Positions 1 to 56,361 of a stretch of 64,000 bases of DNA are shown one piece after another. The stretch is from the NCBI RefSeq assembly GCF_029867415.1, contig NC_081181.1, positions 69,722,144 through 69,786,143 on the forward strand. The letters run 5' to 3'. Below the pieces are notes generated by a model. The model was not told where the DNA came from, did not search any database, and saw only the letters and a program-made list of their open reading frames with translations. Positions within the stretch are counted from its first letter, which is position 1. Every line of letters begins with the position of its first letter. The DNA comes from Vicia villosa (taxonomy: Eukaryota > Streptophyta > Magnoliopsida > Fabales > Fabaceae). Made by a program: the position numbers and the translations under genes.

Positions 1-1509
1 GTGATTCTGAATCGACTTGCGTCTATTCCGAACCACTATTGAAACGATTGTATATGTGTTAAAACCACTAACCAGCTTGAGATAAACGATAAGAGAATAC
101 ACTATAGAATCAATACGTCGCTCTATTGAAACTCAATTAACTTCTTATATGATGAACGACGTTTGCAATGCAGTAATAGTGAAAGAAGCAAAAACACAAA
201 CACTTGGTGATAATGATCAAATTGATGGTGATTCAATATGTGATGGATTGTGATGTTTATATAAGTTCTTAATTCACAATCTTAACACTCGAATCGTTGA
301 TCAATTTGCTATTATAACCAAATATGAACAGAACGTAAATGAAAAGGTAAAAGCGACAAGAACACGATATTTGTTTAGGCAATTCGTCGATCGTCCTCGC
401 TACGACTACGTCTGCCCCCAATTCCAAACTGAAATTGGGAAATCTTTCATTAATGTTGAAATCAGTTTATACAAAGAAGATAACAAAGCGATAAACCATA
501 AACCAATTATGTCGATCCTTTGAATCTTCTTCCCCCTTAATCTTTAGTCAGATCAAGGTTATCCAAGAGCTTCACTTGATCCCTTTTCTGCAGTGTCTTG
601 AATTGCCTTGAACCCTTGTTCTTCAATCTTCACACTCAGATGGATCCTCAATGAAACCTCTTGATAAAAACCCCCAAGAAACACCTATCTTGGAGGACAA
701 AACCCGCAGATTTTATTCACCAAAAACCCCACAAATCTTCACCCACTAGGAATCTTCAATTCCGTTCCATGGACGTTATCGAACTCGATCACTAACCCTC
801 AACGCAAGAATGATTATGTGTAATTGTGTTGGAGATGACGAAGAATGAAGATGAGAAGCCTTTGTGTATCTTTCAGTCTTTGGTGTTGTGTTCAATAATT
901 GAACCTTGGACAATATATATGAGAGCTTTTCAGTTGATGCAGAGAAAACCAGAAATTTTGACAGTTTTGATCAGATAGGTCGACCTAATTTAGGGCTGGG
1001 TCGACCTAATAGAGCTGCATATACTTTGGAAGTCAGTTTTGATCAGATAGGTCGACCTAATTTAGGACTGGGTCGACCTAACAGAGCTGCATATCTTTTG
1101 GATGTCATTTGTTCCCAGTTAGGTCGACCTGTCAAAGAGGTAGGTCGACCAGAATCCACTTCAGATGCGTTTTAGGGAAATTTTCTCAGATTAGGTCGAC
1201 CTAGTTGTTGTGTAGGTCGACCTAGCAGAGTGATATGTAAATTTCTTCATTTTAGGTCGACCTGTGTTGGGAGTAGGTCGACCTAACTGCTGATTTTCTG
1301 AGTTCCTCTTATTTTGCTTGTGTTGAGTCGACCTGCGTGCATAGTAGGTCGACCTGCCCTGTTATGAGAGACCGAAGCTTGCTTTTCTTTGAGTTCTTCT
1401 GCTTGTACCTTGTTGCTTGAGTGCTTGTTGAGTTTGCCATGAATCAAAAACATCTTTGTGAGTGTGATCTTGTATTCACATACTCTGTGAGTGTGATCTT
1501 GTATTCACA
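1..1509 (-). repeat. 3' LTR of the copia element, cut by the window start
   Basis: Position 1 matches 5929 in the other LTR and the copies stay colinear to 1509/7437 without net indels. I count about 16 substitutions by eye over 1509 bases, mostly transitions and several at CpG, so roughly 1% divergence. The last 53 bases contain a 29-bp direct duplication of the LTR terminus. A TATA-like ATATATAT lies near 911-918, read on the minus strand. Confidence 0.95.
976..1356. repeat. Palindrome array in copia LTR (GGTCGACC)
   Basis: Eleven exact GGTCGACC words plus one AGTCGACC variant, most as the longer TAGGTCGACCTA or AGGTCGACCT, occur as six pairs with short spacers. The first is at 978-985 and the last at 1347-1354. 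In the element's orientation the array lies upstream of the TATA-like box, that is in U3. Confidence 0.95.
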
Positions 1510-1642
1510 TACTCCCCCTTTTTGATGATGGCAAACCGGTAGTAGAAGCATTGGCAATAAGTGGTAAAAGCTCCCCCGTACACTCAGCATCTATTTACTC
1601 AGCTGAGCTCCCCCGTACACTCAGCATCTATCTCCCCCTTTG
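1510..1642 (-). promoter_or_regulatory. Multiple polypurine tracts of the copia element
   Basis: Read on the minus strand, the LTR is immediately preceded by AAAAAGGGGGAGTA, the PPT. Three more purine tracts follow: two identical GTACGGGGGAGC words (1607-1618 and 1570-1581), each inside a duplicated ~36-bp unit, and CAAAGGGGGAGA (1631-1642). Repeated PPT units before the 3' LTR are a described Sirevirus hallmark. Confidence 0.8.
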
Positions 1643-2061
1643 ACAACATCAAAAGAGATACAAGAAAAAAACAGAAGAGAAGAGTAACGAGAGAAACATA
1701 GATAAAATGCTAGCATTCATAGTATAGTAGATAAAAGGTAGATAGTGACAGCATGAGAGCCAAATATGTTTAAAGGTGTATTAAAGATGAGACACATATA
1801 TGAGCAAGAGAGATATATGCATGAAGTCACTATAAGCATGTTAATTGATAGCATATTATAGTATCAATAATATTTTTGGAAGTGAACAACAATTACGTTA
1901 CCGCTTTCTCAATATGTAGGTGTCAACTTTAGTGGCAGCCTTTAGTCAATGTGGAATGACGCCTGGCTTGATGATGAACTACCTTTACGCTAAGAGAAAT
2001 GTTAGCAGAAAAATATATATATATAAAGTAAAGGAATAATATTAAGAGAGAACAAACGTAA
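1643..2061 (-). other. Copia 3' untranslated region
   Basis: Non-coding stretch between the pol stop codon and the PPT cluster. No envelope-like ORF, such as some Sireviruses carry here, is visible. It is A/T-rich with no convincing repeat. Confidence 0.7.
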
Positions 2062-3534
2062 TTAGCCCAAATTAGAGATATCGAGTATCCCTAATTCCCT
2101 ACGAATGTTGAAGTATTGCTCCGTTGCTAGAGGTTTGGTGAAGATGTCAGCTAGTTGCTTCTTGCTTTCTACATGTTCAAATGTAACGTCTCCTTTCTCT
2201 ACATGATCTCGTAGAAAGTGATGTCTTATTTCAATATGCTTGGTACGTGAGTGTAAGACAAGATTTTTACTCAAGTTTATGGCACTTGTATTGTCGCACA
2301 TGATAGGTATGCGATCAAGCTTAATACCAAAGTCAAGAAGTTGTTGCTTGAGCCATAATATTTGTGCACAGCAGCTTCCAGCAGCTACATATTCTGCCTC
2401 AGCAGTAGATAATGCAACCGATACTTGTTTCTTGCTATGCCAACTTATCAATGAATTTGAGAATAGATGACATGTTCCACTGGTGCTTTTTCTATCGGAT
2501 TTGCAGCCAGCAAAATCTGAATCGGAGAATCCTACCAAATGGCACTCATTTCCCTTTGGATACCATAGGCCATATGTAGTAGTTCCACGTAAGTATCGCA
2601 GAATTCTTTTGACAGCTTTTAAGTGAGATTCTTTTGGACAAGATTGATATCTTGCACACATACACACACTAAACATAATGTCTGGTCTTGAGGCAGTAAG
2701 ATACAATAGTGAACCTATCATACCTCGGTATAATTTCACGTCAACCTCTTTACCTTTCTCATCTTTGTCTAGATTAGTATTTGTTGCCATAGGTGTGTCA
2801 ATTTCCTTTGCTTCACTCATTCCAAATCTTTTGAGCAGCTCCGTACAGTATTTAGTTTGATTCACAAACGTTCCATGACTGAGTTGCTTGATTTGTAGGC
2901 CAAGGAAGAAATTTAGCTCACCCATGAGACTCATCTCAAATTCACTCTGCATAAGCTTAGAAAAGTCTTTGATAAGTTTTGCATTAGTCGACCCGAATAT
3001 AATATCATCTACATAAATTTGGACTAAGAGAATATCTTTATCTTTTCTTTTAATAAAGAGAGTAGTGTCAACTTTACCCCTAGAGTACCCTTGACTAAGG
3101 AGAAATTTGCTCAAACGTTCGTACCAAGCCCGAGGGGCTTGTTTAAGACCGTATAGAGCACGTTTCAGCTTATAGACATGAGTTGGATACATGTAATTCT
3201 CAAAGCCGGGTGGCTGAGCAACATAGACTTCTTCATTTATATGGCCATTTAGAAAGGCACTTTTAACATCCATTTGGAATAGTTTGAAGTCTTTAGAACA
3301 AGCATAAGCAAGTAAGAGACGAACAACTTCGAGACGTGCTACAGGAGCGTATGTCTCTTCATAATCAATACCTTCCTCTTGATTATAACCTTGGGCAACT
3401 AATCTAGCTTTGTTTCTAGTAATAACGCCGTTTTCATCAAGTTTGTTACGAAAAACCCATCTAGTGCCTATTACTTGATGATCTCCCGGATGAGGGACTA
3501 AGTCCCAAACATCATTCCGTTTAAATGGGTTTAA
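2062..3534 (-). pseudogene. pol: Copia pol remnant: reverse transcriptase and RNase H
   Basis: This frame encodes the copia-type RT followed by RNase H. Visible landmarks are MDVKSAFLNG and YVAQPPGFE (RT core), LKQAPRAWYERL, the catalytic YVDD in QIYVDDIIFG, HSRTKHIEIRHHFLRD, and the RNase H words DSDFAGCKSDRKSTSG and STAEAEYVA. The frame is open upstream of the first Met at 3273 as far as 3534, where an in-frame TAA (3535-3537) separates it from the protease/linker segment of the same frame. It ends at 2062-2064. RT and RNase H look uninterrupted, but without an intact Gag, an integrase or a start this copy cannot supply its own Gag-Pol. Confidence 0.93.
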
Positions 3535-4077
3535 TTATTCTTGCATGGCCATTAGCCAATGCTCATCAAGTAATGCATCCTTAGCGTTTTTCGGCTCAAC
3601 TTGTGAAACAAAAGCAAAATGATGACAGAAGTTCCTTATCTTTGAGCGTGTTGTAACGCCCCTTGAGATGTCTCCTATTATATTGTCAATTGGATGGTCT
3701 TTCACATTTGTCCAGGCCTTGGGAAGTTCTTCATTGTTTGAGATGCTTTCTTTTTCATTTACATCGTGAGACTCATCTTTCTCTCTCTCAGCATCTTTCT
3801 TTTCAATACTTTCATTCTCGTCTTCCTTATCCTTGACAATGTCTTCAGTGGATGGACCTGCACCATTAAACGAAAGACCTACACTTCCTTTACCAAGTAT
3901 GGCTCCCCGATTGTTATCTCCATAGATGACATACCCCTTTTTCTTTGCTTGAAACTCAACGAAAAGAGATAGGTCTCCAGTCATGTGTCTTGAACATCCG
4001 CTATCAAGGAACCACAACCTTTCGGTGATGTCAAGACACTTTTCCTGCAAAATTAATTTAGAAGGGAAGGTCCCCAA
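3535..4077 (-). pseudogene. pol: Copia pol remnant: protease fused to post-integrase linker
   Basis: The N-terminal part shows the copia protease active site DSGCSRHMTG (residues ~27-36) and runs to the GKGSVG that follows it in the family. The sequence then jumps to an acidic, Lys/Glu-rich segment and the linker that normally precedes RT (HPIDNIIGD, GVTTRSK, FVSQVEPKNAKDALLDE). The pre-integrase zinc motif and the whole integrase core are therefore absent, with the deletion junction near 3870-3890. A premature TAA at 3535-3537 ends this piece, and a frameshift near 4075 separates it from the gag frame. No integrase is encoded elsewhere in the element. Confidence 0.9.
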
Positions 4078-4925
4078 TCTTCATTGGGTCCTAGGTGGTG
4101 AGTACAGAAGTTGTTGCACTTAGGCAACCATTGAAATACTCCTTTAGGAACTAAAATTCTCCTAAATTTGCATTTTTCAATGGTATGTCCCTTTTTGCAA
4201 CAATAATGACAGGTAATATGATGAGAATATGCTGTTTTGCTAGTTGATACTTTTGGTACAAAAGTGTATTTACTATATAAAGGAGTATACGATCTTTTGA
4301 ACTTATTTGGATCAACGGCAAAAGTCACTTTTGGTTGTAGAGCCTTGTCTAACTTGGCTTTTAGATCTCTTACTTCTTTTTGCCAAATGTGACATGTCTC
4401 ACAACCAAACCATGATGTAGGATCTATTTCAACTTTATCCTTTTGAATGTCTAGCATAGATTGTTTTAAAGCTTCCATATCCTTTTCGGTTTTCTCAACT
4501 TTTGATTCAAAATATGAAAAGATTTTCTTATTTGAGGCCAAAAGTTTGAAAGCTTTAATTGCATCTCTATGTAATTCTTCAAAAGCAAGTTTTAGTTGAG
4601 AATGAGATACCTTATCTACGAGTTCAGGTTTAAGATGACTTACAACTTTCTTTTTCTTGTGTTGATGAGCCATAAAACATAGGTTTGCTGATTTTTCTTC
4701 ATCGCTTGATGAGCTTTCACTAGATGAATCACTTTCCCATGCTATGTAGGCTCTTTTAGATTTGTTATGACCTTTGCTTTGGTTCTTCTCTTTTTCCTTC
4801 TTAAGGTATGGACAATCCGGTTTGTAGTGACCGACTTTCCCACAATTGAAGCAAAGGCCTTTGATTTTTCCTTTATTGTCGTCATCTTGTTTGAACTTGT
4901 TTGATTGCTTTCTATAGTTGATCAA
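4053..4925 (-). pseudogene. gag: Copia gag C-terminal half with two zinc knuckles
   Basis: A clear CCHC zinc knuckle, CFNCGKVGHYKPDC, lies near residue 25. It is followed by a Ser/Glu-rich stretch, a long predicted coiled coil with heptad-like Leu/Lys/Glu content, and a second CCHC-like motif, CHYCCKKGHTIEKC, near residue 240. This frame follows the upstream gag frame after a one-base shift near 4922-4925 and is lost again near 4060-4077, just before the protease. RNA packaging is the usual role of the knuckles. Two knuckles with a long spacer is longer than a minimal copia Gag. Confidence 0.88.
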
Positions 4926-5473
4926 GCCTTTGTCAGAATGTTTTGCTCCATTTTCTTTAGATATTTGTTGTATCTTCGCACAAACAGTCCCATTTCCTCA
5001 TCATCGGAGTCTTCGTCATCACTTGTATCACTATCCTTTAGCTCTTGTCTTGAGGTCTTGGAGCTTGAAGCTTTTAGAGCTATCGACTTCTTCTCTACCT
5101 CTTTCTCCATGTTCTTTTCTTTCTTTGCCCTTTTCTCATGCATGTCAAGGCATTTAAGGTGTTGTTCATGTTCCTCTAGTTTACCAAAGAGAGTGGTAAT
5201 GTCTAAGGTGTTTAGATCATTTGCTTCCTTTATTGCTGTAACCTTGGGTTGCCATTCCCTGTTCAAGCATCTTAAGATTTTGTTAGTAGCAACTGCATTG
5301 GAAACAGGTCTATCAAGAGAATTTAACCGATTTTTCAGGTGAACGAATCTCTTCTGCATGTTTTCGATGGATTCACCATCTTCCATGTGGAAGAGTTCGA
5401 ACTCTTGAGTTAACGTATTGATCCTAGCTAGTTTGACATCATCCGTTCCCTCGTGGGCAACTTGCAATGTGTC
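4922..5473 (-). pseudogene. gag: Copia gag middle segment (UBN2-like capsid region)
   Basis: The segment continues the frame of the N-terminal gag piece after an in-frame TAG at 5474-5476 where the family has Trp. It carries the capsid-region words typical of plant copia Gag (LNTLTQEFELFHMEDGESI style, FVHLKNRLNSL, RCLNREWQPKVTAI) and ends in an acidic Asp/Ser cluster followed by the YNKYLKKM region that leads into the zinc knuckle. It is broken from the next piece by a frameshift near 4925. Confidence 0.87.
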
Positions 5474-5791
5474 CTACATAGCTTTAGCGGATCTACAATG
5501 GGAAACGCGATAGTATTCATCAACTCCTAGAGCTGAGATTAGAATGTTTCTCGCTTTCCAATCGTATGCATATCTCTTTTCATCTTCAGCATCCCAAGTA
5601 TTTTCTGGTTTTGGAACAACTGCACCAGCTGCATTTGTCATGGTGATCTGAAAGGGACCATTGACAATAGCTGTCCAGATGTTCCTATCAATTGCATTGA
5701 TGTGGACACACATACAATCCTTCCAATAGCCATAGTTTTCACCATTGAAAACTAGAGCTCTATTGGGAGCCCCTTTAGGTCCGGAAGCCAT
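5474..5791 (-). pseudogene. gag: Copia gag N-terminal segment
   Basis: Starting at the Met at 5791 (ATGGCTTCCGG), this encodes the DUF4219/UBN2-type Gag start: a RALVFNGENYGYWKDCM block, a TIVNGP-like segment (TAIVNGPFQIT) and W-A/E-DEKRYAYDWKARN. A further in-frame Met lies upstream at 5818, but the internal one matches the usual Gag N-terminus better. The premature TAG at 5474-5476 ends it after about 105 residues. The initiator lies only ~40 bases past the PBS. Confidence 0.88.
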
Positions 5792-5831
5792 CTTTCCAAT
5801 AAGTGTTTCACGTAGCACGGAATAAACCAGA

Positions 5832-5843
5832 GCTCTGATACCA
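5832..5843 (-). promoter_or_regulatory. Copia primer-binding site (initiator tRNA-Met type)
   Basis: The minus strand reads TGGTATCAGAGC two bases after the LTR end, the standard plant initiator-Met PBS. It fixes the element orientation as minus and the LTR inner boundary at 5846. Confidence 0.96.
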
Positions 5844-5845
5844 CT

Positions 5846-7437
5846 TGTTAGACGCTGGCCTTAGGATCTAGAGGGGGGGTGAATAGATCTTACACAGTTT
5901 TGCGGAATTAATTGAACTTTAAGCGGAAGTGATTCTGAATCGACTTGCGTCTATTCCGAACCACTATTGAAACGATTGTATATGTGTTAAAACCACTAAC
6001 CAGCTTGAGATAAACGATAAGAGAATACACTATAGAATCAATACGTCGCTCTATTGAAAATCAATTAACTTCTTATATGATGAACGACGTTTGCAATGCA
6101 GTAATAGTGAAAGAAGCAAAAACACAAACACTTGGTGATAATGATCAAATTGATGGTGATTCAATATGTGATGGATTGTGATGTTTATATAAGTTCTTAA
6201 TTCACAATCTTAACACTCGAACCGTTGATCAATTTGCTATTATAACCAAATATGAACAGAACGTAAATGAAAAGGTAAAAGCGACAAGAACACGATATTT
6301 GTTTAGGCAGTTCGTCGATCGTCCTCGCTACGACTACGTCTGCCCCCAATTCCAAACTGAAATTGGGAAATATTTCATTAATGTTGAAAGCAGTTTATAC
6401 AAAGAAGATAACAAAGCGGTAAACCATAAACCAATTATGTCGATCCTTTGAATCTTCTTCCCCCTTAATCTTTAGTCAGATCAAGGTTATCCAAGAGCTT
6501 CACTTGATCCCTTTTCTGTAGTGTCTTGAATTGCCTTGAACCCTTGTTCTTCAATCTTCACACTCAGATGGATCCTCAATGAAACCTGTTGATAAAAACC
6601 CCCAAGAAACACCTATCTTGGAGGACAAAACCCGCAGATTTTATTCACCAAAAACCCCACAAATCTTCACCCACTAGGAATCTTCAATTCCGTTCCATGG
6701 ACGTTATCGAACTCGATCACTAACCCTCAACGCAAGAATGATTATGTGTAATTGTGTTGGAGATGATGAAGAACGAAGATGAGAAGCCTTTGTGTATCTT
6801 TCAGTCTTTGGTGTTATGTTCAATAATTGAACCTTGGACAATATATATGAGAGCTTTTCAGTTGATGCAGAGAAAACCAGAAATTTTGACAGTTTTGATC
6901 AGATAGGTCGACCTAATTTAGGGCTGGGTCGACCTAACAGAGTTGCATATACTTTGGAAGTCAGTTTTGATCAGATAGGTCGACCTAATTTAGGACTGGG
7001 TCGACCTAACAGAGCTGCATATCTTTTGGATGTCATTTGTTCCCAGTTAGGTCGACCTGTCAAAGAGGTAGGTCGACCAGAATCCACTTCAAATGCGTTT
7101 TGGGGAAATTTTCTCAGATTAGGTCGACCTAGTTGTTGTGTAGGTCGACCTAGCAGAGTGATATGTAAATTTCTTCATTTTAGGTCGACCTGTGTTGGGA
7201 GTAGGTCGACCTAACTGCTGATTTTCTGAGTTCCTCTTATTTTGCTTGTGTTGAGTCGACCTGCGTGCATAGTAGGTCGACCTGCCCTGTTATGAGAGAC
7301 CAAAGCTTGCTTTTCTTTGAGTTCTTCTGCTTGTACCTTGTTGCTTGAGTGCTTGTTGAGTTTGCCATGAATCAAAAACATCTTTGTGAGTGTGATCTTG
7401 TATTCACATACTCTGTGAGTGTGATCTTGTATTCACA
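5846..7437 (-). repeat. 5' LTR of the copia element (1592 bp)
   Basis: Plus-strand ends are TGTTAGACG...TATTCACA. The length is exact from the PBS side (5846) and from the breakdown of similarity to the left LTR (7437). In the element's direction it begins TGTGAATACAAG; a 29-bp duplication of that terminus follows, then the palindrome array, a TATATAT box around 6839-6846 and a ~900-bp downstream part. Confidence 0.95.
6904..7284. repeat. Palindrome array in the second copia LTR
   Basis: Colinear copy of the 976-1356 array, offset 5928: eleven GGTCGACC words and one AGTCGACC variant. The palindrome cores are unchanged between the LTRs although substitutions occur in the spacers and flanks (for example near 6939-6945 and 7089-7100). 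Confidence 0.95.
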
Positions 7438-7468
7438 GAAAATGGGGATTTTGGACTTTCTCTGTGCA

Positions 7469-7503
7469 GGAAATCAATTTCCCCATATTGGAAATCTATT
7501 TCC
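7469..7503. repeat. Pair of GGAAATC-N-ATTTCC palindromes
   Basis: GGAAATCAATTTCC (7469-7482) and GGAAATCTATTTCC (7490-7503) differ only at the centre. They match the GAAATCGATTTC palindromes of the B LTR with the central CpG lost. Confidence 0.85.
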
Positions 7504-8139
7504 TGAGACTGCGTTGGAAAAAATGCAGAATTTGAAAATAACATAACTGGAGTTTCGTAACTCGGATTTAGATGTCGTTGGAAGCATTGGAAAGCTCTTC
7601 GAATGCTCTATTATGTAGTGAAGTAAGACAATTGTTTTATGCCAAGGATTTTAGGGTCAAATTGACATTCTAACATGTATATATGATATGGTTACTACGG
7701 AGTCTTAATGGAAAATTTCCCAACTTTGGGAATTCATAACTTCCGACTTGTAGGTCCGTTTGACATGGAGTTTATATCATTATAAAGCTAGTAAGATGTA
7801 TTATCTAGGAAAAATATCCTAGGTACCATATTGGTTCTCTTCGACGTATCTGACGCCCATTCAGACGAATGTGGCAAATGGAATTTTGTCAAATTTACCC
7901 CCAAGAGTAATCCAGTCCTGTAGAGGGAGCTGAATACCTATGTTGTCCTTCCAGACTTGTGAAATCGTGTTGTAGAACATGATATGCATTATATTATCAC
8001 TTGTATACTATTGGTATGAATATGTAGGACAAATCTGAATGCTTTATGATGATAAATGTTATTATGGCTTGATGATATGTGTGATAATGATCACTTGATT
8101 TATGTTTGTTCTAATCGAACTTTCGGATATGATTATATG

Positions 8140-8514
8140 CATACTTGATGGGAGTGATCTGGTGTATACTCATCATGTATGTTGTGATTTTTGTGCATTA
8201 ACGAGTACACAATGGGAATGATCTTGTGTATACTCATTGTGTATTTCGTCATCTTTATGTCCCCCTCCATGCAGGAATGATTTGGTGTATACTCTGTGGA
8301 TGGCCGTCAATGGAAATGATCTGGTGTATACTCATTGGTGGGAAGAGATAGCTGGGAATATTCACCGCTCTCAATGGGAATGATCTGGTGTATACTCATT
8401 GATTGGTGTGAGATATGTGGATACTTGATGGGAATGATCTGGTGTATACTCATCATGTTACCGAGGAAATGCTAGTGCTTGATGGGATGATCTAGTGTAT
8501 ACTCATCATGTACT
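8140..8514. repeat. Seven-unit hairpin array, constant loop and variable stem
   Basis: Seven copies of a 19-20 nt loop close to GGAATGATCTGGTGTATACT are each flanked by self-complementary arms that differ between copies. Units: 8140-8181, 8206-8243, 8266-8303, 8304-8341, 8371-8402, 8426-8455 and 8474-8514. Arms include TGATG/CATCA, TACACAATG/CATTGTGTA, TCAATG/CATTGA and CCGTCAATG/CATTGGTGG, the last with two G-U pairs. Units are irregularly spaced and not in simple tandem. Confidence 0.9.
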
Positions 8515-9171
8515 GAAAAAGGAATTTCCTCTAGCGGGGAAACATAGGATGTTGGTACGGTGGGATTGTGATACCATGTCGGCAAGATTACTCGTTTACT
8601 CACCCCTAGTGATGCCACATAGGCAATATCATTAGGTCCTCGCCGGTGGGCTGGCACAATCACGGTGACGTGGTTGTACTAGCAACAGCATACTTGTGTG
8701 TTATTTGTGTGTTTGTTTCTGTCTCATTGGTTAGTCATGGGACTTCCAATGGTGATATTGTCCATGTTGTGTATTTGTACCTGACCGTGAGGATACCCCG
8801 GATCCACGGTGGATCTGTTTGATCGTAAGAACCTTGTAGAACCGAGTGAACCCATAAGATAGAGGAACTCACTGAGATTTAGTAATCTCACCCCAATTCT
8901 CTTAATATTTTTCTGGAATAAGTTAGAAGTAGACGAATTGCTAGATGACTCGTATTGAAGACCGTGGACGAGTTGATGGCAGGAAGACCTCGACAGACGT
9001 TATCTTTCCGCTGTGCAATATTTTGGACAAGCCAATTGTATACACTTTATACTTAGAGTTGACTTGTATATGGTTTTTAATTCTTGTCATTTTTCCGCTT
9101 ATTCATGTTTCTTGCACCATTTTAGCATCACTACATATTATTCTAGATGTATATGTACAGGGTGTTACAGT

Positions 9172-9186
9172 TGGTATAAGAGCAGG
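9172..9186 (+). promoter_or_regulatory. F primer-binding site (Met-tRNA type, one mismatch)
   Basis: TGGTATAAGAGCAGG follows the LTR end; the core differs from TGGTATCAGAGC at one base. It marks 9169 as the LTR inner end and gives plus orientation. Confidence 0.85.
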
Positions 9187-10939
9187 TCGATTCTTGTCCC
9201 TGCCATGAAACATCGTTAGCAATTCTCTCCTCTCTTATATGTGTGTGTTGCTAGCCTGATTTCTACTATTATAGTATTCAGTTATTGAGCCTGATCACCT
9301 CACTAACTGTGTACGTGATAGATTGGATCATGGTGGAGTCACCACGAGGATGCGTAGGTTTCGAAGCAAGTCGAGCTGAAGTGGTCGAAGTCGGTTAAGT
9401 TAGGAGAATGTTGGGATTATCAGGAGTAAGAGGATAAATTTTCACGGAATAGTTGACAACCCGACTTCGTGACAAGGTCTGAGACGATTGGAAGTTCCAA
9501 CGTTTTGATTGGATAGAGTAAAACTTCTCTTGATCTTGGTAGCAGTGAAGGAAATCCATGAAGCACCTGAGTAAGAATGTAGTAAGGGAATTCTACGATG
9601 GAGTTGGGCTTGAAGTAGTTAAGATTTAGCTACACGATCATGGTGCTAGTGGAAGAGAAGACTAGAGAACCAATAAGATGGAAGACGTTTGGGAGTTTGT
9701 ACAAAGATATTATATTTTTCTAGTAACTCTGGCTTGGGAAGGACTCGAATGGACAAGGTTTTACACCCCGACTCGTTCTGGTGTACCTTGAGGAGTGTGT
9801 GGCTACCTATTTAATGGATTGGTGGAACGAGTGGAAGTGGTAATCTCCATTTGGGAAATCTTTGGTACCTATTTTGGTGAAAGGAGCTACCGCATCTCCT
9901 TGCTATTTTGACATGGGTGAGTCCTAGAACTACGCTAGGCAGAAATTGAATGGATGGATATGCAGAGTGACATAAACCATGTTCCCTGCTAGTTGTGATT
10001 CATCTAGTCCCAAGTGAAACCGTAGAACTACGCTAGGTGTTGGGCACTTAGGTGAATTCAACTAGTGGTTATCTACAGACATCGACGAGCTAACCACAAC
10101 ATGTGATTGTTGTTTGTAACCATGATATTCCTATGTGGTGGTAGTTATCATCGGAAACCTCTCGTATGTGCCTTATATGAATGAGTACATCCCTAGCGTG
10201 GGATCTCGAACTGGATTTTTATCAAGTCAGATCTAGCTTGTTACGTTTGTAGGGGGTTTACCCTAGTCGTGTGACACTTTTAGGTTTCAGCATCCTGAGG
10301 AGTGTGATTGGAAGAACTTGAGGAGCGAGGACCTTAGTGGGAACCTGTCCTGTTATTGTCGGTCGTAACTATAGGATACGGGTAGAGATGGTTATGCGCT
10401 TCTGTTAGGTTACTTGAGATCATGGCCTTGGAGTTGGACCAATATATTAGTACTACCAGATAGGTATAACGCTGCAGTATCGCTATCGTGCACGAGGCGT
10501 GTGAACCATTTTTCCAACAAATGTGTGACATTATTGATCTGGAACTCAAGGTATCATTCAGATCAGTATTCGTGACACGCGAGCCCGAATTCTCATAAGG
10601 TAGATGAGATAAAGATCCATATGTCGCACTCGATGCTTGAGGATTATGCGAGCTTGGGAGATAAGAGATGGATTAGATTCTAACACTACGCTTATGAGAA
10701 GACCTTGGATGGTCGTGTCGCGTGAGAATTTTATATTCTATATTGTAGATGCTCCTTGTTCCATTGTAATTGGTGAACCTTTATTCATAGTGTCCGAGAT
10801 GGAATGTGTATAATCACCGTATTCCAAACAACACATTGTGCGACTACCTTTAACCTTGCTGAACAGAGTACGAATGGATAAAGTGTACCTTGGATTAGCT
10901 CGATGCGAGATATTTAGGGGGGTATTGGTAGATCCTCAG
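9187..10939 (+). other. F interior: non-coding retrotransposon DNA
   Basis: About 1.75 kb after the PBS with no ORF over ~75 codons and no recognisable gag or pol word. It contains two copies of a TAGAACTACGCTAGG phrase (~9926-9940 and ~10024-10038). It probably is the start of a non-autonomous or decayed Ty3/gypsy interior. It ends where the Ogre-like LTR E begins. Confidence 0.6.
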
Positions 10940-32114: not shown

Positions 32115-34245
32115 TGTAACACCCCATATTTTCATTAATTGATTTAAATTGGAATTAAAATTATTTATTTGAAATTATTTGGCATTTGATTGGATTTAAT
32201 TGAAGAATTATGAAAAAGGAGGTTATTGGGTCAAATGTGGTGTTAGTAAAGAGGGGGTGTTATGTTAGTAGGCCTTTTACTAAATTAAAATCTATTTTTC
32301 ATAAAATAAGGAATTTAGGAAAAAAGGAAAATAGACGTGGAAGAGAAGCAGAAGAGTAGAAGTGCTGGTACGTGAAAGAGGAACAGAAGAGGAAGAGGGC
32401 TAATCAAGATCCTTGGCTAAGGTAAGGGGGGACTCTTCTGGTTAACATCTTTTATCGTATTATAGATGATGGGACTGATTTAGATGCATTGTTTGTGTCA
32501 ATTGGTTATATGTTAGGTTGGGGTTTTTGGATGATTTTGATGGGAATTTTTTGACGTGATGAATTGTATGATCATATGGCTGTTATGATGATTGAATGAT
32601 CCTCTTTGTGTGTTATATTTGTATTATAACATGTATGTGGATGATATGGTGGTATTTGAGGTTCATGATATAACTTGATTTGGGTTTTGGGGATTTTGGG
32701 ATGAATCCCGTAATGCTGTCAGTCGATGTGAGATCTCTGGTTTTTGCCAGTTCGCGCCGCGAAGGTGGGTGCGCGCCGCGAAGGCGTAACTTTTCTCGTT
32801 CCGCGCCGCGAACCTGTGTTTGCGCCGCGGACTGTGTGTGGCGCCGCGTGCTGCAGCGATAATTATTTTCTTTGAAAAATGTAAAAATCTGTAACTTTCA
32901 AACCGTAAGTCCGTTTTAGTTGCCGTTTTGGACGTTGTTCCTTAAATTGAATGTTCTACCATATAAAATAAATATAACAACAATAACTTGATTTTATTTT
33001 GAAAAGTATCGTTTTCTTCAAATCTGGCTTACTCTTGTTTTGCATAAATGATGAGGTGCAACGGGTTGTTGTTTGCATAATTGAATGTGTGCAATGATGG
33101 TGTTGTTATATGATTGCTCCTGTTTGTTATACAAATGGATGTTGTTCATGGTAAATATGGTTATCATGTATTTTGATGAATGATGAGGTAAATACTCTAT
33201 CGTGGATGAGTTGCTTTGTTGTACTTGGTACGCGATTGTGAGGGGTGCTATTGTTGTGCACTGTATAATGAATGATTTACCTGCTATGATGCTGTGGTTG
33301 TAATTGGTGTTTATTATACATATATTGTGATGTAAAATATGTATTTTATTATGGTTGAGAAACAACATAACTGTGTGTGGCTGTTGATTATTGTGGTGGT
33401 TGATGATTATGATATCTGGTTGATTAATGTTGATGATGAGCATGTTATGGTTGATACATGCATTTCATAATCATGTTGTGGGCTGTATCCCTTATGGTGG
33501 TGGGACAGCGGTAGCTAATTCCCATTGTGTGGAATTGGTGAGAGAAGTAGCCGAATCTTTATGGTGGTGGATCGGTGAGATGGGTTATCCCATGTTTGGT
33601 ACCACATGCATATAGTTGCATTTGCATTAGGTTGTTGTGTATAATTATAACATGAATGGAAGATTGTCCAATGTTATAATGTTTGATGATGGTGTACTTG
33701 TTATGGTGATGTCTTTTGGTAATGTATTCTATTGTTGTTGTGTGTTGATAAGTACTTCCTGACAATCTGAATATAATGAAATTGGATGAATAATGTGACT
33801 ATGATGTGTTATTGTTTATGATTCGATAACATTTGTTAATTGTGAATGAGACTCACCCTTACTTTGATGATTTCAGATTGGCGAGTAGCGGCTTTCGACT
33901 CTGGTGAGGATAGCTCATAGGCCAGTTTGTTTAAGTATAGTGTCGGTGTCATGCTCTGATATTGTAACACTGGGGGAACGCTAGTTTAGAGTTGATGATG
34001 ATACTCTATTTTGTTGTTATTGGAGTAATTTTGTGAGATATTGCATAGGTGATGTTATGCTTATCTGTTGATTAATGTTCCGCTGTATAGAAACATGATT
34101 TTGTTAAATGGATGATTTGCCCCTAAGTGAAGCATGACAATTGATTTATGATAAATTTGTTATAATTGGAATTGTGGCACCCTTGTTCTTCATGTTTTAC
34201 TCTGATTTTAATGTTAATTTCCGCGGGGTTTAGAAGGGTGTTACA
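32115..34245 (+). repeat. G1 5' LTR (2131 bp)
   Basis: TGTAACACCCC...GGGTGTTACA. It holds the CGCG palindrome array at 32751-32850, a CATAACT/CCG-type module just after it (~32890-32945), and a hairpin at 33515-33538 (CTAATTCC with GGAATTGG around CATTGTGT). Frames seen here in antisense are low-complexity and not genes. Confidence 0.95.
32751..32850. repeat. CGCG-C-CGCG palindrome array in G1 5' LTR
   Basis: Five copies of a GC-rich word; the first is TTCGCGCCGCGAA, whose arms TTCGCG and CGCGAA pair around one C. They stand out sharply from the A/T-rich surroundings. The 3' LTR has a sixth copy. Confidence 0.92.
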
Positions 34246-34249
34246 ATAG

Positions 34250-37606: not shown

Positions 37607-39768
37607 TGTAACACCCCATATTTTCATTAATTGATTTAAATTGGAATTAAAATTATTTATTTGAAATTATTTGGCATTTGATTGGATTTAATTGAAGAAT
37701 TATGAAAAAGGAGGTTATTGGGCCAAATGTGGTGTTAGTAAAGAGGGGGTGTTATGTTAGTAGGCCTTTTACTAAATTAAAATCTATTTTTCATAAAATA
37801 AGGAATTTAGGAAAAAAGGAAAATAGACGTGGAAGAGAAGCAGAAGAGTAGAAGTGCTGGTACGTGAAAGAGGAACAGAAGAGGAAGAGGGCTAATCAAG
37901 ATCCTTGGCTAAGGTAAGGGGGGACTCTTCTGGTTAACATCTTTTATCGTATTATAGATGATGGGACTGATTTAGATGCATTGTTTGTGTCAATTGGTTA
38001 TATGTTAGGTTGGGGTTTTTGGATGATTTTGATGGGAATTTTTTGACGTGATGAATTGTATGATCATATGGCTGTTATGATGATTGAATGATCCTCTTTG
38101 TGTGTTATATTTGTATTATAACATGTATGTGGCTGATATGGTGGTATTTGAGGTTCATGATATAACTTGATTTGGGTTTTGGGGATTTTGGGATGAATCC
38201 CGTAATGCTGTCAGTCGATGTGAGATCTCTGGTTTTTGCCAGTTCGCGCCGCGAAGGTGGGTGCGCGCCGCGAAGGCGTAACTTTTCTCGTTCCGCGCCG
38301 CGAACCTGTGTTTGCGCCGCGAAGGCGTGTTTTCTATTCGTTACGCGCCGCGGACTGTGTGTGGCGCCGCGTGCTGCAGCGATAATTATTTTCTTTGAAA
38401 AATGTAAAAATGTGTAACTTTCAAACCGTAAGTCCGTTTTAGTTGCCGTTTTGGACGTTGTTCCTTAAATTGAATGTTCTACCATATAAAATAAATATAA
38501 CAACAATAACTTGATTTTATTTTGAAAAGTATCGTTTTCTTCAAATCTGGCTTACTCTTGTTTTGCATAAATGATGAGGTGCAACGGGTTGTTGTTTGCA
38601 TAATTGAATGTGTGCAATGATGGTGTTGTTATATGATTGCTCCTGTTTGTTATACAAATGGATGTTGTTCATGGTAAATATGGTTATCATGTATTTTGAT
38701 GAATGATGAGGTAAATACTCTATCGTGGATGAGTTGCTTTGTTGTACTTGGTACGCGATTGTGAGGGGTGCTATTGTTGTGCACTGTATAATGAATGATT
38801 TACCTGCTATGATGCTGTGGTTGTAATTGGTGTTTATTATACATATATTGTGATGTAAAATATGTATTTTATTATGGTTGAGAAACAACATAACTGTGTG
38901 TGGCTGTTGATTATTGTGGTGGTTGATGATTATGATATCTGGTTGATTAATGTTGATGATGAGCATGTTATGGTTGATACATGCATTTCATAATCATGTT
39001 GTGGGCTGTATCCCTTATGGTGGTGGGACAGCGGTAGCTAATTCCCATTGTGTGGAATTGGTGAGAGAAGTAGCCGAATCTTTATGGTGGTGGATCGGTG
39101 AGATGGGTTATCCCATGTTTGGTACCACATGCATATAGTTGCATTTGCATTAGGTTGTTGTGTATAATTATAACATGAATGGAAGATTGTCCAATGTTAT
39201 AATGTTTGATGATGGTGTACTTGTTATGGTGATGTCTTTTGGTAATGTATTCTATTGTTGTTGTGTGTTGATAAGTACTTCCTGACAATCTGAATATAAT
39301 GAAATTGGATGAATAATGTGACTATGATGTGTTATTGTTTATGATTCGATAACATTTGTTAATTGTGAATGAGACTCACCCTTACTTTGATGATTTCAGA
39401 TTGGCGAGTAGCGGCTTTCGACTCTGGTGAGGATAGCTCATAGGCCAGTTTGTTTAAGTATAGTGTCGGTGTCATGCTCTGATATTGTAACACTGGGGGA
39501 ACGCTAGTTTAGAGTTGATGATGATACTCTATTTTGTTGTTATTGGAGTAATTTTGTGAGATATTGCATAGGTGATGTTATGCTTATCTGTTGATTAATG
39601 TTCCGCTGTATAGAAACATGATTTTGTTAAATGGATGATTTGCCCCTAAGTGAAGCATGACAATTGATTTATGATAAATTTGTTATAATTGGAATTGTGG
39701 CACCCTTGTTCTTCATGTTTTACTCTGATTTTAATGTTAATTTCCGCGGGGTTTAGAAGGGTGTTACA
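37607..39768 (+). repeat. G1 3' LTR (2162 bp)
   Basis: Identical to the 5' LTR except about three substitutions and an extra 31 bases in the palindrome array (38243-38373), which adds one GCGCCGCG copy. The indel ends lie in the repeats, consistent with slippage or unequal recombination. Confidence 0.95.
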
Positions 39769-39903
39769 AAAAGCATGTATATGCAGAAACAAAATGACTT
39801 TTATTGATGATTTTAATGTTTTAAAACAAACAGAAAACAGCCCCAACAACTTCACTTTCATCTTGGGCAGAATGAAAGAATTTTTGAAAAACATAAAAGC
39901 AAA

Positions 39904-42252: not shown

Positions 42253-42877
42253 TGTAACACCCGTATATTTTAATTTTTAATTTAAATGGAAATTTAATTT
42301 AATAATTAGAATTATTGGTGATTTGTAGAATTTAATTGGAAAATGATGGTTTATGGTGTTGGGCCATGTGTGACGTTAAGGAATGAGGGGGTGTTATGTT
42401 AGTAAAGGTCTTATTCCAATTAAAGGTTATTTTATAAAATAATAAGGAATTGAGAATAAGAAAAGGAACGTGAAAAGCAGAGCAGAGGAGATGAGGGATT
42501 GGGAAGCAGGAACGTGAAGAGGAGCAATGGAGGGAGAGACCAATCAAGAATCTTTGGCTAAGGTAAGGGGGGACTCTCCGGTTATCATCTATTATCGTGT
42601 TCTTAGATAATAATATTGATTAGGGATGTTGTTGAGTCAATTGGATTATATGATAGATTTAGGGATTTAGTCGAATTGTATGATGTTTGATCCCTATGTT
42701 TGAATCCATGATACCTATGTTGTTTCGGTCCCAATTGATGCGTGATTGAGGTATTATGAGGTGTTCTTCGTGTTGTTTGTGCATTCGATTTCCCTAGGTT
42801 CGTACTGGTATGAATTGGGTGTGTTTGGAATGCATAGAATGCTGTTTTCTGCAGGTTGGGGTTTCTGAAATCGCCGG

Positions 42878-43080
42878 TTCGCGTCGCGTGCACAGGGTTG
42901 GCGCCGCGAACAGGTGGGCAGAATTCCAGGAAATTGTGATACGCACAGGTCGCGCCGCGTACCTGTGTTGGCGCCGCGAAGGCGTACTTGTTTTCTCGTT
43001 TCGCGTCGCGTGCATAGGTTGGCGCCGCGAACGTGTTAGTGTGGTTCAGGTCGCGCCGCGAACTTTGGTTGCGCCGCATG
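42878..43080. repeat. CGCG palindrome array in G2 5' LTR
   Basis: Eight copies of a CGCG(C/T)CGCG-type word in pairs separated by short spacers; matching array at 54763-54965 in the 3' LTR. Confidence 0.9.
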
Positions 43081-43482
43081 CTGTAGCGATAGTTATCTCT
43101 TGGGAAAGTTAAATGATGTGTAACTTTCGAACCGTAGGTCCGTTTCTAGTGCCGTTTCGAGCATGATGAATCTTATGATATAGCCTATGTTTTAAATGAT
43201 GAAATGAGGTGTGAATCCAATTATTTTAAATATGATTTTATTTCTTGGTGTAGGATGTATTGTACATATATGTGATGAGATGTGTTAAATACATGATATG
43301 TTGAAATATTAATCATGTGACGATTTGTTTAATTGGATGATGTATTGTTGACATATAGGATGAAATGTGACAATATGAGATGTTGTTTTGAAAAACATTA
43401 TGATGTGATGATTTGTTTAGAGTCGTATGATGATGACTGAATTGCTTTGAAATGATGTGAATACATGTGTGTCCTTATTTTT

Positions 43483-43605
43483 GATGATGATGATTGGTGT
43501 GGACACTTGTATGTTCTTTAATGATGATGATGATGATTGATTATATTTGAATGAAGCTAATGTATATAAACATACTTTGATGATGATGATGATGATGATG
43601 ATGAA
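43483..43605 (+). repeat. (GAT)n microsatellites in the G2 LTR
   Basis: Several runs of GAT/TGA, longest about nine units near 43578-43604. The 3' LTR copy (55365-55480) is shorter, accounting for the length difference between LTRs. Confidence 0.9.
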
Positions 43606-44489
43606 ATGGGTATTTGATGATGTTACTCATTAGACTTGACGATGGTATAGTATGTTGTATATGTTGCATTCATTCATGTTCACTGATGATACTGTATCCA
43701 TAAGGGTGTGTTGGATCAGTGAAGGGCATGATTCCCATTGTGTGGAATCTGTGCTGGCAGGGCCGTATCTTGATGATGTTGGATCGGTCATGGGTTATTC
43801 CCATTTGATGAGGTTGGTACCACATGCATAGTGTCAGTTCATACATATGCATACTTTTATAACATGATTGGATGTATTCCAGTGTTATAAATATTGATGA
43901 TGTGTTGGTTGTGTGTTTTGTTGAATTAATGTTGAGTATGATTGTCTGTTTGAAAGATGTGTTTTGTTGATGTTTGTGTAAACGATAGATGTTCCTGATA
44001 ATCTGAATATGATGAAATTGGGTGAATGATATAACTATGATGTGTTGTTATTTAAGATGCAATAACATTTGTTAACTGTGATGAGACTCACCCTTACTGT
44101 TGACATTTTCAGATTGAGGATAGCTGCTTTCGACTTGGTGAGGATTAGCTCATAAGTCAGTGTATTAGTGTAGCGTCAGGTGTCATGCTTTGATATTGTA
44201 ACACTGGGGGAACGTTAGATTAGAGTTTATGATGATACTCTATCGTGTTGTTATTGTATTAAATTATGTGGGATATTGCATAGATGATGTTATGCTTATC
44301 CATATGATGAATTTTCCGCTGTGTAAACATGAGATGTTTATGTATTATGACAGATTGTTCCTTAGTGAAAGCATGACAATGAATTTATGATAATTTGTTT
44401 TAAATTGAATTGTGGCACCCTTGTTTTCATGTTTTACTTTGAAAATTATTTTATAAATTTCCGTGGGGTTTAGAAGGGTGTTACAATAG

Positions 44490-54137: not shown

Positions 54138-56361
54138 TGTAACACCCGTATATTTTAATTTTTAATTTAAATGGAAATTTAATTTAATAATTAGAATTAT
54201 TGGTGATTTGTAGAATTTAATTGGAAAATGATGGTTTATGGTGTTGGGCCATGTGTGACGTTAAGGAATGAGGGGGTGTTATGTTAGTAAAGGTCTTATT
54301 CCAATTAAAGGTTATTTTATAAAATAATAAGGAATTGAGAATAAGAAAAGGAACGTGAAAAGCAGAGCAGAGGAGATGAGGGATTGGGAAGCTGGAACGT
54401 GAAGAGGAGCAATGGAGGGAGAGACCAATCAAGAATCTTTGGATAAGGTAAGGGGGGACTCTCCGGTTATCATCTATTATCGTGTTCTTAGATAATAATA
54501 TTGATTAGGGATGTTGTTGAGTCAATTGGATTATATGATAGATTTAGGGATTTAGTCGAATTGTATGATGTTTGATCCCTATGTTTGAATCCATGATACC
54601 TATGTTGTTTCGGTCCCAATTGATGCGTGATTGAGGTATTATGAGGTGTTCTTCGTGTTGTTTGTGCATTCGATTTCCCTAGGTTCGTACTGGTATGAAT
54701 TGGGTGTGTTTGGAATGCATAGAATGCTGTTTTCTACAGGTTGGGGTTTCTGAAATCGCCGGTTCGCGCCGCGTGCACAGGGTTGGCGCCGCGAACAGGT
54801 GGGTAGAATGCCAGGAAATTGTGATACGCACAGGTCGCGCCGCGTACCTGTGTTGGCGCCGCGAAGGCGTACTTGTTTTCTCGTTTCGCGCCGCGTGCAT
54901 AGGTTGGCGCCGCGAACGTGTTAGTGTGGTTCAGGTCGCGCCGCGAACTTTGGTTGCGCCGCGTGCTGTAGCGATAGTTATCTCTTGGGAAAGTTAAATG
55001 ATGTGTAACTTTCGAACCGTAGGTCCGTTTCTAGTGCCGTTTCGAGCACGATGAATCTTATGAGATAGCCTATGTTTTAAATGATGAAATGAGGTGTGAA
55101 TCCAATTATTTTAAATATGATTTTATTTCTTGGTGTAGGATGTATTGTACATATATGTGATGAGATGTGTTAAATACATGATATGTTGAAATATTAATCA
55201 TGTGACGATTTGTTTAATTGGATGATGTATTGTTGACATATAGGATGAAATGTGACAATATGAGATGTTGTTTTGAAAAACATTATGATGTGATGATTTG
55301 TTTAGAGTCGTATGATGATGACTGAATTGCTTTGAAATGATGTGAATACATGTGTGTCCTTATTTTTGATGATGATGATTGATGTGGACACTTGTATGTT
55401 CTTTAATGATGATGATGATTGATTATATTTGAATGATGCTAATGTATATAAACATACTTTGATGATGATGATGATGATGAAATGGGTATTTGATGATGTT
55501 ACTCATTAGACTTGACGATGGTATAGTATGTTGTATATGTTGCATTCATTCATGTTCATTGATGATAATGTATCCATAAGGGTGTGTTGGATCAGTGAAG
55601 GGCATGATTCCCATTGTGTGGAATCTGTGCTGGCAGGGCCGTATCTTGATGATGTTGGATCGGTCATGGGTTATTCCCATTTGATGAGGTTGGTACCACA
55701 TGCATAGTGTCAGTTCATACATATGCATACTTTTATAACATGATTGGATGTATTCCAGTGTTATAAATATTGATGATGTGTTGGTTGTGTGTTTTGTTGA
55801 ATTAATGTTGAGTATGATTGTCTGTTTGAAAGATGTGTTCTGTTGATGTTTGTGTAAACGATAGATGTTCCTGATAATCTGAATATGATGAAATTGGGTG
55901 AATGATATAACTATGATGTGTTGTTATTTAAGATGCAATAACATTTGTTAACTGTGATGAGACTCACCCTTACCGTTGACATTTTCAGATTGAGGATAGC
56001 TGCTTTCGACTTGGTGAGGATTAGCTCATAAGTCAGTGTATTAGTGTAGCGTCAGGTGTCATGCTCTGATATTGTAACACTGGGGGAACGTTAGATTAGA
56101 GTTTATGATGATACTCTATCGTGTTGTTATTGTATTAAATTATGTGGGATATTGCATAGATGATGTTATGCTTATCCATATGATGAATTTTCCGCTGTGT
56201 AAACATGAGATGTTTATGTATTATGACAGATTGTTCCTTAGTGAAAGCATGACAATGAATTTATGATAATTTGTTTTAAATTGAATTGTGGCACCCTTGT
56301 TTTCATGTTTTACTCTGAAAATTATTTTATAAATTTCCGTGGGGTTTAGAAGGGTGTTACA
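54138..56361 (+). repeat. G2 3' LTR (2224 bp)
   Basis: Same structure as the 5' LTR; its palindrome array (54763-54965) is better preserved, with CGCGCCGCG where the 5' copy has CGCGTCGCG. Confidence 0.95.

Follow-up and report, generated by a model that had tools for sequence, protein, structure and literature searches.

The window, a 64,000-nucleotide (nt) stretch of the 2.03 Gb Vicia villosa assembly, contains at positions 8140-8515 a row of seven hairpins in which the 20-nt centre is near-constant while the stems differ from unit to unit. The array lies in the remaining 3' part of a long terminal repeat (LTR). The features are listed below; matches are to the hairpin model R1, and L numbers denote individual copies.

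1-7437, probable minus strand: another retroelement, with repeats at 1-1509 and 5929-7437 (self-BLAST and reading)
7438-9169, plus strand: remaining 3' LTR part with the array (from LTR pairs of relatives and the L004 LTR; the L002 alignment begins at 7446)
8140-8181, plus strand: hairpin unit 1, CATAC[T]TGATG / CATCA[T]GTATG (match 8136-8185, 67.9 bits)
8201-8249, plus strand: hairpin unit 2, ACGA-G-TACACAATG / CATTGTGTA-TT-TCGT (match 8200-8249)
8263-8303, plus strand: hairpin unit 3, weak, with a 2-nt bulge, CCATGCAG / CTGTGG (from the sequence)
8304-8341, plus strand: hairpin unit 4, CCGTCAATG / CATTGGTGG (match 8298-8347)
8364-8407, plus strand: hairpin unit 5, CACCG-CTC-TCAATG / CATTGA-T-TGGTG (match 8362-8411)
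8420-8462, plus strand: hairpin unit 6, TAC[T]TGATG / CATCA[T]GTTA (match 8416-8465)
8473-8515, plus strand: hairpin unit 7, TAGTGC[T]TGATG / CATCA[T]GTACTG, centre 1 base short (match 8470-8518)
9171-9189, plus strand: primer-binding-site (PBS)-like sequence TTGGTATAAGAGCAGGTCG (from the sequence; TTGGTATCAGAGCAGGTCG in L004 and L009)

The edge at 7438 is the end of the inserted element's repeat. The retroelement at 1-7437 is taken to have inserted into the array LTR, cutting off its 5' part, and a PBS-like stretch near 5845 suggests its minus orientation. At the other side, the array LTR ends with GGGTGTTACA at 9169 and is followed by PBS-like TTGGTATAAGAGCAGG; we take the sequence at 9171-9189 to be a binding site for initiator-Met tRNA. 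What is left of the window copy is the 3' part of a single LTR, together with the PBS. Relatives of lineage A (the lineage names A to F are our own) have the hallmarks of LTR retrotransposons, namely TG...CA LTRs (TGTAATACCC...GGTGTTACA), a PBS and a polypurine tract (TTGGTATCAGAGCAGG, AAGGGGGGGAGAATG). The full LTRs of the relatives measure about 2.46 kb, and the two LTRs of a pair lie about 6 kb apart. In the seven pairs compared they were 98.9-99.9% identical, so the insertions are recent. TATA-box candidates, which would place the transcript start, differed between copies.

The centre of the seven units is GGAATGATCTGGTGTATACT or one of the near variants GGAGTGATC, GATTTGG, GATCTTG and GAAATG, and the units follow each other at 64, 59, 39, 64, 54 and 53 nt. 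Reading confirmed the initial annotation in that the arms change together around this near-constant centre, each 5' arm pairing best with its own 3' arm. It also bore out that units 1, 6 and 7 go on pairing beyond a T-T mismatch whose position they share, and that units 2, 4, 5 and 7 use G-U pairs. Units 1 and 6 have the stem core TAC-T-TGATG/CATCA-T-GT, which has TGC in unit 7, and extra outer pairs are present in units 1 and 7. In unit 5, CACCG/TGGTG pairs beyond an internal loop, outside TCAATG/CATTGA. The arms most frequent in relatives are TACGCAATG / CATTGCGTA for unit 2, CCACGCGG / CCGTGG for unit 3 and TAC[T]CGATG / CATCG[T]GTTA for unit 6.

Searched across the window at E up to 1, model R1 gave six matches, all inside the array, and none in the window's other gypsy-like LTRs. 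Unit 3 of the window had no match of its own, its stretch overlapping the match of unit 4. Nor did the model match the interiors of L031 and L032. Known structured RNA families of Rfam 15 gave 0 matches at 7400-9400 of the window (E up to 1), and viral contigs of IMG/VR contained no exact match to 23- and 18-nt centre patterns. The units do not fit a precursor of a microRNA or hairpin-derived small interfering RNA; a near-continuous stem of about 20 bp or more per hairpin would be expected, and the outer stems have only about 5-12 pairs, often with a mismatch or bulge.

Copies of the array were collected from the assembly by two queries. With the array itself, 40 of 167 first-look candidates were scored, window included, and all 30 loci fetched had seven units. 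The second query, confined to the downstream flank (8530-8930), gave 2350 candidates, of which the best 40 were scored; 26 of the 30 fetched carried the array, 14 of them at places already found by the array query. These 26 loci had six to eight centre matches; three had eight, two of these with a weak match far upstream. At the other four flank-picked loci, each of which was read, a different sequence occupied the array site. In L059, L061, L062 and L063, other sequence stops right at the expected 3' arm of unit 7, before TACTGTGTAAGC, and this foreign sequence resembles an inserted element of a single kind.

A query with a second lineage retrieved lineages B to E, and a query with lineage D retrieved F. 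In the fetched stretches, lineage A copies have seven units, apart from a few with six or eight; lineage B has four to six, C six or seven, and D, E and F four each. The centre of lineage B is mostly GGAGTGATC. One copy, L090, is mosaic-like: it follows A in the first 350 columns, with at most two mismatches per 50, and over the 150 columns after that it follows F (0 mismatches vs. 4 for A), a pattern that is consistent, on few sites, with a recombinant of lineages A (5') and F (3'). In L076, at about 60-500, a local duplication through the centre has produced a hybrid unit with unmatched arms (CCATGCG/CGTTGCG). Since it is absent from L086, a copy on the same contig at a distance of 7.6 kb, this unit is probably young.

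To compare own with swapped arms, all 5040 re-pairings of the window's arms were scored. The true arrangement, alone among them, gave 57 Watson-Crick pairs over 12 positions (mean of all arrangements, 38.1), showing that the array observation is real and beyond chance. When G-U was counted, the 64 pairs were reached by 2 of the 5040 arrangements, as was the summed hairpin energy of -92.1 (mean, -62.6), the true arrangement included in both cases. Sixteen copies drawn from 69 loci, several of them near-identical or repeated, were tested in the same way; the true arrangement came first alone in 12 of the 16 when ranked by energy and in 10 when ranked by Watson-Crick count, with 1/24 the best value that a four-unit copy can give. 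By count, the result was weak in lineage B (46/720, 47/720 and 52/120), because bulges spoil the ungapped count; by energy, the weakest copy was L069 (3/120).

Around the centre, the outer stem of each unit has roughly 5 to 12 pairs. The initial annotation had described the centre as a fixed 20-nt loop. It is near-constant, but on the plus strand it is predicted to contain five pairs, the constant part folding as AUGGG-A-AUG[AUCUGGUG]UAU-A-CUCAU. The predicted head has an 8-nt terminal loop, AUCUGGUG, an internal A-A mismatch and G-U pairs at two fixed places, both of which become A-C on the opposite strand.

Folding was compared with dinucleotide shuffles on both strands. The whole array of the window folded no better than its shuffles (z -0.45; -0.43 in a second run). 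Of its units folded alone, unit 2 reached -18.3 kcal/mol, which none of 300 shuffles equalled, whereas 295 of 300 shuffles were as good for unit 3 and 200 of 300 for unit 4. The window copy is decayed. In all seven other copies tried, the sense strand scored z -1.59 to -3.18. Sense and antisense values, respectively, were -0.43 and 0.31 for L001 (window), -2.93 and -0.33 for L004, -3.18 and -0.44 for L008, -2.70 and -4.65 for L050, -2.19 and -2.18 for L072, -2.91 and -0.04 for L079, -1.59 and -0.07 for L074, and -2.97 and -1.41 for L093. A preference for the sense strand is thus clear in three of the six lineages (A, D and E), partial in F and absent in B and C, which beat their shuffles as well or better on the antisense strand (z -4.65 and -2.18).

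The five innermost arm pairs were also predicted in sequence context, a probe that is unsuited to unit 3. Among copies with seven units, they reached a probability of at least 0.94 in 5 units of L004, 4 of L008, 3 of L002 and 1 of the window copy; among those with six, they did so in 5 units of L050 and 3 of L072, and among those with four, in all 4 of L079 and in 3 each of L074, L091 and L093. A fused unit 3/4, with a longer stem than ordinary units, occurs in lineages B, D and E. Of its 17 distinct versions there, 14 fold at -18.8 to -26.1 kcal/mol, and the remaining three, all of lineage B, at -11.3 to -15.6 kcal/mol; fused units of lineage F fold at -13.1 and -17.3. The antisense strand of fused units folds nearly as well, and in lineage F it is level or better.

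Covariation was examined between units and among copies of the same unit. Between units, in a gap-free alignment of 40 units hand-picked from 72 distinct ones, 80.3% of cells were paired vs. 72.5% after shuffling, and the covariation score was 0.265 vs. 0.161; in neither case was any of 500 shuffles as high. Slid versions of the structure paired 28-53% in the same set. Pairs changed on both sides (8 vs. 7.5 shuffled; 257/500) and further pair types (26 vs. 27.0; 437/500) were at the shuffled level in these 40 units. As modelled, the structure is well supported between units.

A further claim of the initial annotation was that the stem is free and only complementarity is conserved. The stems do differ and own arms pair, but units 1, 2, 6 and 7 share TRC-N-YRATG/CATYR-N-GT, and by their sequences these four most probably descend from one duplicated hairpin. 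Their stems differ by compensating changes, e.g., TGATG/CATCA vs. TGGTG/CACCA. Unit 7 occurs as TGATG/CATCA (A, D and E), TGGTG/CACCA (L090-L093), CGATG/CATCG (part of B and C) and CAATG/CATTG (L085), as well as in G-U and uncompensated states (CGATG/CATCA in L028, CCATG/CATTG in L072 and CAATG/CATCG in L085). Compensated changes in the window's units 2 and 3 (CG/CG to CA/TG) could come from methylated CpG decaying on each of the two strands. The change from A-T to G-C in unit 7 of L090-L093 is not of this kind. The outer pair of unit 2 is G-U in 33, A-U in 5 and G-C in 3 elements, and the ninth pair of unit 4 is G-U in 26, A-U in 5 and G-C in 2 elements, with one C-U mismatch.

When arm complementarity was scored against shuffled arms over more copies, it exceeded the shuffled level between units, whereas distinct copies of the same unit gave 10 both-side changes vs. 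8.0 (261 of 1000 shuffles as high). After exclusion of six out-of-register units, the numbers were 10 vs. 6.5 (85/1000), and 1413 of 1507 cells were paired vs. 1408.7 (56/1000). Unit 7 alone had 4 both-side changes vs. 1.4 (30/1000). Covariation within a single unit, compared across its copies, is borderline at best, and the variation looks mostly like ordinary decay. One-sided changes had no bias toward G-U: the ratio of G-U to A-C was 20 to 14 for changes in one element and 16 to 17 for shared changes, in a count that included the six out-of-register units and in which LTR pairs and near-duplicates were merged to one element by a hand list. Without the six units it was 14 to 13 and 16 to 19, respectively, and transitions made up 27 of the 43 changes confined to one element and 35 of the 41 shared changes. 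Since most genomic copies are dead, the power of this test is low, and no support comes from it. All four stem columns that are not Watson-Crick consist of G-U, but this is no test, since the pairs were picked by hand. The RNA pairing suggested in the initial annotation is therefore supported by prediction, own arms beating swapped ones in the window and most of the 16 copies and sense folding beating shuffles in 7 of 8 arrays, but not by covariation within units.

We next consider which elements carry the array. The 3.76-kb interior of the lineage A copy L031 has no open frame above 126 amino acids (aa), and the longest is antisense. Near its end, ahead of the polypurine tract, it reads WDETRLEEATWELESEMRESYPHLFW followed by a stop, which looks like the end of pol and which we take to be the end of a gypsy integrase. 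With an LTR pair about 6 kb apart and a non-coding interior, this one copy fits a non-autonomous derivative similar to large retrotransposon derivatives (LARDs). In lineage B, two stretches in the LTR neighbourhood had no frame above 125 aa. Coding-type interiors were read between two same-orientation array LTRs, in the sense of the array: L097 (lineage D) has an RVP_2 protease and then the start of RVT_1, and L096 (lineage F) has the end of RVT_1, RT_RNaseH and Integrase_H2C2, the zinc-binding part of integrase. The Ty3/gypsy order of protease, reverse transcriptase, RNase H and integrase was thus read in pieces across these two copies. In both, short gaps to the LTRs lie outside the fetched stretches, and frames are interrupted in places and were left as read. 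Neither gave a BLAST match to L031, so in the stretches compared, coding-type and non-coding elements share the array but no alignable interior; the coding state rests on one interior each of A, D and F.

Because the two types of element share the array and little else that can be aligned, a trans-acting role (packaging, dimer formation or reverse transcription) fits better than a coding role. Our preferred reading, to which we give a probability of roughly 45%, is that the array consists of cis-acting hairpins of the genomic RNA, whose heads would most likely be sites for Gag or a co-factor and would be common to helper and parasite elements. It draws on computed results: own-arm pairing, the sense preference in A, D and E, the presence of the array in non-coding and coding-type lineages, and several compensating changes. 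From these we infer transcription of the array, the end of the RNA at which it would lie and the use of the heads in protein recognition. As part of the sense transcript of a group of Ty3/gypsy retrotransposons, the array would act in cis as RNA hairpins, with a fixed head on an outer stem whose sequence may drift while its pairing is kept. Hairpins that bind proteins have this design, the head being fixed and the stem free. The heads would be recognized by Gag of the coding relatives or by a co-factor, genomic RNAs of helper and parasite elements could be packaged together via the heads, and several heads in a row may provide avidity.

LTR retrotransposons make up much of many plant genomes, and to our knowledge, their packaging and other cis-acting RNA signals have hardly been mapped in plants. 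Tnt1 carries BII boxes, short repeated elements in the LTR that are DNA regulatory sites and are not known to have arm complementarity; they resemble the array as a short repeat in an LTR and differ in the arm complementarity found here. LARDs likewise have LTRs, a PBS and a polypurine tract around a non-coding interior, and we know of no hairpin arrays among their features. BARE is a copia-type element. According to the accessible part of one report, the particles of barley BARE1 package the parasite BARE2, in which the signals for dimerization and packaging are conserved (PMC3735527). The likeness lies in a parasite element packaged by helper particles, with packaging proposed in our case; the same part of that report describes no repeated-hairpin array for BARE. 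In RNA viruses, as described in excerpts of four papers, many packaging stem-loops present one motif, as the units do here, but they are dispersed over genomes, whereas 4-8 stand in a row in a plant retrotransposon LTR (PMC3662417, PMC6281560, PMC8677749 and PMC7612645). No description of such an array was found in the portions of the open-licence PMC literature that were accessible. Structured cis signals of retroelements are already known; the array would be a new form of such a signal.

The same structural evidence would serve a different role of the hairpins in the genomic RNA, such as kissing-loop dimers, strand transfer, or control of RNA stability or translation in the leader or at the 3' end. 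Two palindromes in the fixed centre, GTATAC and GATC, speak for dimers, and dimerization via a short palindrome in a 5' hairpin has been proposed for Ty3 RNA (PMC11381356, accessible part). The predicted stem, however, ties up much of GTATAC, and the 8-nt loop is not self-complementary; we regard such another role as possible but unlikely. Complementarity could also be kept by mutation instead of selection, if template switching of reverse transcriptase or replication forks at hairpins copied one arm to the other. Retroelements are reverse transcribed in every cycle, and the palindrome TAACCGGTTA of the same LTRs also has differing yet complementary flanks. However, copying would remove both the T-T mismatch (units 1, 6 and 7) and the G-U pairs (units 2, 4 and 7), which persist in several lineages, it does not predict the sense-strand preference, and two other palindrome cores lack complementary flanks (1743/2000 and 1682/2000), making this explanation improbable.

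At the DNA level, a near-constant element of 20-26 nt, present 4-8 times about 39-70 nt apart in the LTR, could be a promoter or enhancer array in U3, similar to the repeated BII box of Tnt1, with the arms incidental or part of a dyad; a sequence-specific site leaves unexplained why differing arms pair with their own partner, and we give this reading a low probability. Old tandem duplication of a palindromic unit followed by neutral decay, which the within-unit variation resembles, is very improbable, since both sides of the stem have diverged from unit to unit and most units still pair well where drift alone would lose the pairing left from the ancestor, and the between-unit test disfavours it.

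The hairpin module with its fixed head and free stems is present in recent insertions and common to coding-type and non-coding elements. It provides a short, definite RNA for Gag-binding tests and a natural series of head numbers from 4 to 8. An extension of the preferred reading, which we consider doubtful, is that the array is a multivalent Gag handle by which the non-coding parasite (A, seven heads), keeping more heads than its coding-type relatives (D and F, four heads), competes for their particles. If this were true, head number would serve to tune the conflict of helper with parasite elements. The fused unit 3/4 points to a loss of heads in the coding lineages and not to a gain by the parasite.

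Further palindromes and hairpins were seen near the array. Upstream of it, the same LTRs contain paired perfect palindromes with the core TAACCGGTTA and flanks that differ yet are complementary (CCAG..CTGG, GGG..CCC, ATG..CAT, ACCG..CGGT and GTG..CAC). In oriented LTR positions they lie at about 880-1000 in L004, about 1000-1110 in L008 and about 25-70 in L091 and L093. Over 24 distinct pairs, complementarity of the flanks extended 2.50 nt vs. 1.52 shuffled, which none of 2000 shuffles reached. Other lineage A LTRs carry GGAAATCGATTTCC instead, with flanks not complementary beyond chance (1743/2000). The repeats of the neighbouring retroelement contain many palindromes AGGTCGACCT at 962-1380 and 6890-7310, with five perfect 12-mers in 1-1509 vs. 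0.52 in mononucleotide shuffles; complementarity of their flanks was no better than chance (1682/2000).

A further sense hairpin was noticed by eye 3' of the array at about 8654-8679 (GTACAATCA...TGGTTGTAC in relatives). The LTR block around it varies little among the 30 array-selected copies, and its part 8530-8930 is the flank that gave the 2350 first-look candidates. Other gypsy-like LTR pairs of the window lie at 32115-34246 / 37607-39769 (98.4% identical) and 42253-44485 / 54138-56361 (98.8%). Both have short GCGCCGCGAAC repeats and no hairpin array, and in the first pair the LTR end and PBS are similar to those of the array LTR.
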